DNA of 64,000 nucleotides from Lentzea sp. NEAU-D7 (lineage in GTDB: Bacteria; Actinomycetota; Actinomycetes; Mycobacteriales; Pseudonocardiaceae): assembly GCF_026242055.1 (NCBI RefSeq), contig NZ_JAPJDL010000024.1:1-64000 (forward strand). Reading direction: 5' to 3'. Below are positions 52,869 through 53,156 of the stretch, piece after piece. The notes under the pieces were generated by a model. That model was not told the DNA's origin. It searched no databases and saw only the letters and a program-made list of their open reading frames with translations. The first letter of the stretch is position 1; the number at the start of each line of letters is the position of its first letter. A program made the position numbers and the translations under genes.

Positions 52869-53007
52869 ACACCAGCGACGTTTAAGAGTCGGATCAGTCC
52901 TTAGGTCGCCGCGCTCTTCCGTTGAGCTACGGCCGCACGGCAGAGCGGCCAGCAGGATTCGAACCTGCACCTCGGCGAGTCTTGTCCGGTCTCGGGTGAT
53001 CTGGCGT
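52869..53007 (-). ncRNA. tRNA-mimic RNA unit 2 (permuted tRNA-like, Y-RNA-like)
   Basis: Read on the minus strand: outer stem ACGCCAG/CTGGTGT (53007-53001 with 52875-52869), inner stem CGCCG/CGGCG at the anticodon-stem position, T arm GCAGG-TTCGAAT-CCTGC (52968-52952), acceptor 3' strand TGGCCGC (52951-52945), 8-base loop, acceptor 5' strand GCGGCCG (52936-52930), UA, then a D arm with GCTC...GAGC and the GG of the D loop. Acceptor strands pair over 7 bp with one G-U. The order T arm-acceptor-D arm is permuted relative to a tRNA, and the anticodon is replaced by a long stem, as in bacterial YrlA RNAs. Confidence 0.75.
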
Positions 53008-53018
53008 TCGGCGGAAAT

Positions 53019-53156
53019 GCTGAATCTGGAGCGAGAGTCTGAGTGTGATCCCGGCTTGCCTCTACCGATTGGGCTACCCCGGCGCGATGGTGCCGGGAGG
53101 AGGATTCGAACCTCCACTTGTGACCGGGTGGTTCAGGCTGACGTTTCAGTTTCAGC
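53019..53156 (-). ncRNA. tRNA-mimic RNA unit 1 (permuted tRNA-like, Y-RNA-like)
   Basis: On the minus strand: outer stem GCTGAAACTG/CAGATTCAGC (53156-53147 with 53028-53019, one mismatch), further pairing CTGA/TCAG, then CCCGG/CCGGG at the anticodon-stem position. T arm GGAGG-TTCGAAT-CCTCC (53115-53099), acceptor 3' strand TCCCGGC (53098-53092), 8-base loop ACCATCGC starting with A-CCA, acceptor 5' strand GCCGGGG (53083-53077), UA, D arm with GCC...GGC and loop GG. Same design and loop length as unit 2, 11 bases apart, but different stem sequences, so the fold is conserved by compensatory change. Confidence 0.78.

Follow-up and report, generated by a model that had tools for sequence, protein, structure and literature searches.

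A DUF7873 gene and two permuted tRNA-like RNAs in Lentzea sp. NEAU-D7

We analysed a stretch of 64,000 nt from contig NZ_JAPJDL010000024.1 (C17) of Lentzea sp. NEAU-D7, hereafter the window, which carries on its minus strand a gene for a DUF7873 protein followed by two tandem RNA units that have the body of a tRNA in circularly permuted order (Table 1). The two permuted tRNA-like RNAs are real, and DUF7873 is their constant neighbour, the gene and the RNAs being linked and co-occurring in both bacteria and phages. Ro60 is the protein with which Y RNAs are known to associate. The recurring package of gene and RNAs points to a hitherto undescribed machine of RNA and protein that mimics tRNA, and we consider it moderately probable that this is a Y-RNA-like but Ro60-independent ribonucleoprotein (RNP) with DUF7873 as its protein partner.

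Tandem permuted tRNA-like units had been claimed in an initial annotation of this locus, and every element listed there was recovered at its position on the minus strand. In both units the order is T arm, acceptor 3′ strand, 8-nt loop, acceptor 5′ strand, the dinucleotide TA and D arm. Unit 1 combines the T arm GGAGG-TTCGAAT-CCTCC with the acceptor TCCCGGC/GCCGGGG, the loop ACCATCGC and, after TA, a D arm with GG; unit 2 combines GCAGG-TTCGAAT-CCTGC with TGGCCGC/GCGGCCG, the loop TCTGCCGT, TA and the D arm GCTC..GAGC. The acceptor loop begins A-CCA in unit 1 and T-CT in unit 2. The D arms were borne out in part: GG is present in the D loops, but the D stem of unit 1 does not consist of four perfect pairs, and because of this our initial pattern scan detected unit 2 and missed unit 1. 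ARAGORN called 0 tRNA genes in the window. Folding, which had been proposed as a check, divided the units: unit 1 folded better than its shuffles (z −2.7) but unit 2 with its flanks stayed at shuffle level (z −0.1), and support for unit 2 comes from comparison, not from single-sequence folding.

Table 1. Features of the DUF7873 locus, in window coordinates.
Feature	Position	Strand	Basis
DUF7873 gene (PF25283), 243 aa, proposed protein partner	53214..53945	-	Pfam 400.5 bits, E 3.9e-120
GC-rich hairpins in the spacer that leads from the DUF7873 stop to unit 1	53161..53204	-	read from sequence
RNA unit 1, tRNA-like core in permuted order (53115-53058), basal stem formed by the flanks	53018..53158	-	
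RNA unit 2, tRNA-like core in permuted order (52968-52913), basal stem	52851..53019	-	
Strong inverted repeat 3′ of unit 2, possible terminator without T run	52818..52848	-	

A covariance model of unit 2 (R1), whose training set contains the window sequence, matched unit 2 over its full length with 148 bits, the only full-length match in the Lentzea genome. Among relatives compared by protein, identity reached 99% to L. jiangxiensis. The short hairpin ahead of unit 1 was seen again, by eye, in related loci. Of 106 two-unit loci, 69 had a hairpin of at least 8 bp at 45–165 nt after unit 2, compared with 8 at 600–720 nt, and a stricter terminator scan that required a T run found 0. Scanning for promoter consensus sequences gave one weak promoter-like site beside the start of the DUF7873 gene.

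Linkage of DUF7873 and the RNAs

We compiled 187 DUF7873 loci, consisting of 80 genome contigs (the best of at least 564), 13 of 73 phage records, one plasmid-collection record, 86 viral contigs and seven loci from the family of the window; 182 of these had at least 400 nt of downstream sequence. Independence is incomplete, since some contigs or genomes (the window among them) were entered twice. Within 700 nt downstream of the gene, a strict pattern (T stem 5/5, loop TTCRA, acceptor 7/7 closing a loop of 3–40 nt, a D stem, and GG in the D loop) recognised at least one unit in 167 of the 182 loci and at least two in 107. By group, this corresponded to 79/80 genome contigs, 12/13 phage records, 1/1 plasmid record, 68/81 viral contigs and 7/7 family loci. 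The same pattern was found in 0 loci after dinucleotide shuffling (one shuffle per locus), in 0 on the opposite strand and in one upstream. Relaxed rules, with a loop of up to 110 nt, recognised 169 loci, seven of them new, against 0 shuffled, 0 opposite-strand and five upstream matches. R1 added four further loci: L122, L165, L112, where the RNAs are on the strand opposite to DUF7873 and about 1.2 kb from it, and L166, where they lie upstream of the gene. Taken together, the strict pattern, the relaxed rules and R1 placed an RNA at 178 of the 182 loci.

The association also held in the reciprocal direction. DUF7873 was present in seven of 100 genomes of the family, and the same seven gave full-length R1 matches (104.8–148 bits), each less than 400 nt from the gene; the remaining 93 had neither DUF7873 nor an R1 match at E 1e-8. 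Because R1 was trained on DUF7873 loci including the window, the strength of this test lies in the 93 negatives.

RNA architecture and covariation

Covariation was measured on alignments of 37 copies of unit 2 (A3) and 37 copies of unit 1 (A4). The two-helix basal stem of unit 2 had been left out of unit selection, and judged from A3 it covaries strongly: 87.3% of cells were paired, compared with at most 48.5% when the strands were slid, and 135 double changes were counted, compared with 39.6 in shuffles, none of 500 of which reached 135. A lack of covarying homologues had been named in the initial annotation as one result on which its proposal would fail; homologues exist and unit 2 covaries, and the proposal was not refuted by this test.

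Sequences in the T arm and acceptor vary widely, pairing there having been part of the selection. Among 279 units we counted 109 distinct acceptors, and acceptor strands with swapped partners paired fully in only 245 of 20,000 draws. Several further tRNA features lay outside the selection, namely U8, A14, the 15-48 pair and the anticodon-stem position. In 247 nonredundant units, U8 was present in 245 and A14 in 240, and the 15-48 pair covaried, being A-U in 217, G-C in 24, A-C in four and other combinations in two. At the anticodon-stem position, at least five pairs could be formed in 165 of 224 units, mostly starting one base after the D arm, compared with 17–28% with swapped partners. Read from sequence in this way, the units are tRNA cores in which a predicted basal stem takes the place of the anticodon loop.

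The discriminator base differed between the units, being A in 85 of 103 copies of unit 1 and T or G in 91 of 94 copies of unit 2 among the 247. The two heads may therefore be meant for different proteins.

The acceptor loop

The loop that joins the two acceptor strands resembles a tRNA 3′ trailer followed by a 5′ leader. The base directly following acceptor and discriminator (C74) was C in 232 of 247 units, and CCA stood exactly at that place in 85 of 229, whereas offsets of 0, 2 and 3 gave 0, two and three units, respectively. For comparison, CCA is encoded in five of the 33 tRNA genes of the Lentzea genome, with C at the same place in at least 26, and in 20 of 61 phage tRNA genes. In locus L122 the acceptor loop of unit 1 is 607 nt long (3815-4421) and holds a gene for a 186-aa HNH endonuclease of homing type (PF01844, 56.4 bits), around which both acceptor strands stay complementary. 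Because of C74, the placement of CCA and the HNH gene within the L122 loop, we propose, as likely, that the acceptor loop is excised. An extension of this proposal, possible and on the doubtful side, is that each RNA would thereby mature into a tRNA mimic of two pieces, nicked and with its tRNA-like 3′ end free, and would be held by DUF7873; phages and bacteria would use such a Ro60-free relative of Y RNPs to deceive or recruit tRNA enzymes.

Two other candidate signs of loop removal were rejected. As to RNase P, the position that precedes the acceptor 5′ strand was T in 52 of 88 copies of unit 2 and in only 22 of 94 copies of unit 1, and the same position in the 33 Lentzea tRNAs (A 13, G 9, C 7, T 4) gave no clear leader signature. 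Locus L087, from a Microcoleus phage, carries a HEARO RNA and an IscB-like protein (RRXRR plus HNH) at 3943-5461; this insertion sits just after the acceptor 5′ strand, outside the loop. Nor is the loop feature exclusive to the DUF7873 loci. Some Streptomyces-like Ro60 loci (L209, L216) also start A-CCA, their seventh pair having been read by eye; other Ro60-locus units, among 30 rows from 33 Ro60 loci, close with tight loops such as TTCG.

The DUF7873 protein

An AlphaFold model of DUF7873 (mean predicted local distance difference test score 91.0, predicted template modelling score 0.74) consists of N-terminal helices, a long strand hairpin (151-166, 175-194) that holds the conserved residues K158 and H172-P173-Q175, and C-terminal helices. 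Neither sequence nor fold gave a convincing relative of known structure, and Ro60 was absent among the Foldseek and VIA-align matches listed for the model. At E 0.001, Pfam matched the window protein to DUF7873 only, with no TROVE domain. No paper mentioning DUF7873 was found in a literature search, and no account tying a tRNA-mimic RNA to it, most subscription papers lying outside the scope of that search.

The invariant residues, such as K158, H172 and Q175, and the strict association of a single protein with a tRNA-like RNA could also be expected if DUF7873 were a tRNA-processing or tRNA-modifying enzyme, with the RNAs as its substrates or guides and not as parts of a stable RNP. This explanation appears unlikely, given that the protein matched no enzyme family in Pfam, NCBIfam or PHROGs and that its model has no fold match, although a missing match is not decisive.

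Relation to Ro60 and YrlA

Published accounts describe YrlA as a permuted tRNA-like head on a basal stem formed from both ends of the RNA (PMC8394870), circularly permuted relative to tRNA (PMC11472068); Rsr is bound through the basal stem and polynucleotide phosphorylase through the tRNA-like domain (PMC8394870). The initial annotation was right to recognise this design, the units having both the permuted tRNA-like domain (T arm, acceptor and D arm) and the end-formed basal stem. Against the Rfam model of YrlA (RF02553) the two units scored 25.9 and 25.7 bits and four phage loci scored 31.3 to 37.1 bits, below the gathering score of 69. The RNAs were not filed as YrlA because they fell short of the Rfam threshold and also lacked a Ro60 neighbour.

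The absence of a Ro60 gene, expected from the initial annotation, holds for the neighbourhood but not for the genome, which encodes a Ro60 (TROVE) protein on contig C43 and RtcB on C14; neither gene is linked to the RNA pair on C17. The Lentzea Ro60 gene (L189 5364-6992; L001 240-650) has permuted Y-like RNAs of its own upstream, with another basal motif. Beyond Lentzea, TROVE was found in 31 of 50 DUF7873 genomes searched (one genome twice), compared with a background of 18/200 in the order and 30/246 in the class, and the RNA pair and Ro60 thus often share one genome. Deinobacterium chartae was the sole one of 14 control genomes to match both TROVE and DUF7873. Of the 13 phage records with DUF7873, 12 had no TROVE match; the other, Rhizobium phage RHph_Y65 (L088), has TROVE about 5.5 kb from DUF7873 in a tRNA-rich stretch.

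The shared genomes and the sub-threshold YrlA matches are what would be expected of ordinary YrlA-type Y RNAs that serve the Ro60 of the genome in trans, with DUF7873 as an accessory. We regard this explanation as improbable. A TROVE match was missing from 19 of the 50 genomes as well as from 12 of the 13 phage records, and the RNA pair can therefore exist without Ro60. Moreover, the Lentzea Ro60 locus already has its own permuted RNAs, whose motif TTGATCTCGG occurred in 0 of the 187 stretches downstream of DUF7873; motif CTTAAANG of unit 2 was not found at that Ro60 locus. Searched against 33 Ro60 loci, R1 matched mainly the core, at positions of about 52-108 and with a best score of 56 bits, and its sole match over the whole model scored 11.2 bits. 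Between the two options left by the initial annotation, an unlinked Y-RNA pair or a different RNA system, we favour the second because DUF7873 is constant, the basal motifs of the Lentzea Ro60 locus differ and 12 of 13 phage records have no TROVE match.

Genomic context

All 13 phage records contain tRNA genes. ARAGORN placed a tRNA within 3 kb of DUF7873 in 9/13 phage, 49/86 viral-contig and 19/88 other loci, some of the 19 being false calls on unit 1 itself. In loci such as L020, L023, L027, L034, L045, L052 and L057, ARAGORN reported a tRNA-Phe or tRNA-Leu 758–764 nt past the DUF7873 start, overlapping unit 1, and these calls are probably false annotations.

In the Lentzea genome, a perfect 45-bp repeat of the 3′ part of tRNA-Met was found at window positions 54021-54065 and, outside the window, at C17:67239-67283. 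The repeat reveals an inserted element, about 13.2 kb long, that separates tRNA-Met from the DUF7873 gene; in the Lentzea loci L003, L008 and L009, tRNA-Met lies 653, 208 and 530 nt upstream of DUF7873, respectively. The element contains, at 54197-56494 on the minus strand, what looks like a defence gene, whose 765-aa product has an Mrr_cat nuclease domain and an nSTAND3 domain.

A proposed Ro60-independent RNP

In the reading that we favour, DUF7873, RNA 1 and RNA 2 would form a three-gene unit, probably expressed as a single transcript. Each RNA would fold, from a circularly permuted chain, into a tRNA body with acceptor, D arm, T arm and upper anticodon stem, and the transcript ends would pair into a long basal stem at the position of the anticodon loop. 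DUF7873 would bind the conserved basal stems and hold out the tRNA-like heads as a bait or dock for tRNA-recognising proteins, in the manner of Rsr with YrlA but without Ro60. In phages the unit, often situated among tRNA genes, would most likely protect the tRNAs of the phage or assist them; it could, for instance, keep a host anticodon nuclease engaged or draw in an enzyme that handles tRNA. For YrlA, competitive inhibition of an anticodon nuclease has been suggested (PMC7790460). The binding of RNA by DUF7873, the docking, the co-transcription and the benefit are inferred; what the analysis shows is the linkage and co-occurrence of gene and RNAs, their tRNA-like architecture, the covariation of unit 2 and the lack of a TROVE match in most of the phage records.

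Several observations weigh against this reading. The DUF7873 model matches no known RNA-binding fold, and the protein is not strongly basic (pI 5.7–6.7 in seven checked), although its near-neutral charge argues neither for nor against RNA binding. The long stem that the initial annotation proposed to arise from the flanks of both units covaries only weakly in unit 1, where its sequence is conserved: in A4, 71.9% of cells were paired, compared with 70.3% in shuffles and at most 42.8% in slid versions, and the 37 double changes, compared with 29.1, were reached by 52 of 500 shuffles. The RNAs may not form a single uniform class, R1 having recognised only the core in Vibrio phages (L089, L093) and Rhizobium phages (L091, L092). 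No RNA was recognised at loci L126, L127 and L158, L127 being judged through L126, on which R1 was run and whose 650 nt of downstream sequence are identical in print, and L087 is rearranged by its IscB/HEARO insertion. Finally, in the DUF7873 genomes that encode TROVE, service to Ro60 in trans would be possible.

The constant position of the RNAs near the gene, usually downstream on the same strand, together with the hairpin after unit 2, would also suit a cis element, in which the structure at the 3′ end would stabilise the transcript of DUF7873 or regulate it. We give this only a slim chance, however, since the compensatory changes that keep the tRNA core go beyond the need of a 3′ stabiliser, and since in L112 and L166 the RNAs are not downstream on the same strand.

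If a Ro60-independent RNP is correct, a conserved pair of tRNA mimics would have another protein, also in phages without a Ro60 match, and the tRNA-like head would be a module that can be reused by more than one host protein. This reading would provide a first testable role for DUF7873 and predicts an RNP in Streptomyces and actinophages, which are tractable in the laboratory. Should the acceptor loop be cut, the tRNA pathway would also mature a permuted bacterial RNA other than transfer-messenger RNA (tmRNA).

Comparison with known systems

Like YrlA, the partner of Ro60, the units have a permuted tRNA-like head and a basal stem formed by the ends. Unlike YrlA, they are partnered by a DUF7873 gene, usually come as two in tandem, have other basal stems and score far below the Rfam gathering threshold.

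Two-piece tmRNA has the same permuted order and also lacks an anticodon loop, and the phage locus L089 gave a beta_tmRNA match of 25.1 bits, below the gathering score of 84. Unlike tmRNA, the units have a true D stem, and the alanine mark G3:U70 was present in one of 229 nonredundant units; the window had no tmRNA match at gathering score, a tag reading frame not having been searched for. Kinship with tmRNA is accordingly very improbable.

That the units are genuine tRNA genes, broken or permuted, whose products decode once rejoined is the least probable explanation, and hardly credible. The order of 3′ half, intervening loop and 5′ half is that of the circularly permuted tRNA genes known from algae and from one archaeon (PMC3978253), and tRNA processing signals are present, but conserved compensatory changes rule out tRNA gene decay, ARAGORN recognised no tRNA in the window, and, unlike permuted tRNA genes, the units have no anticodon loop, their ends pairing instead into a long basal stem that continues the anticodon stem.
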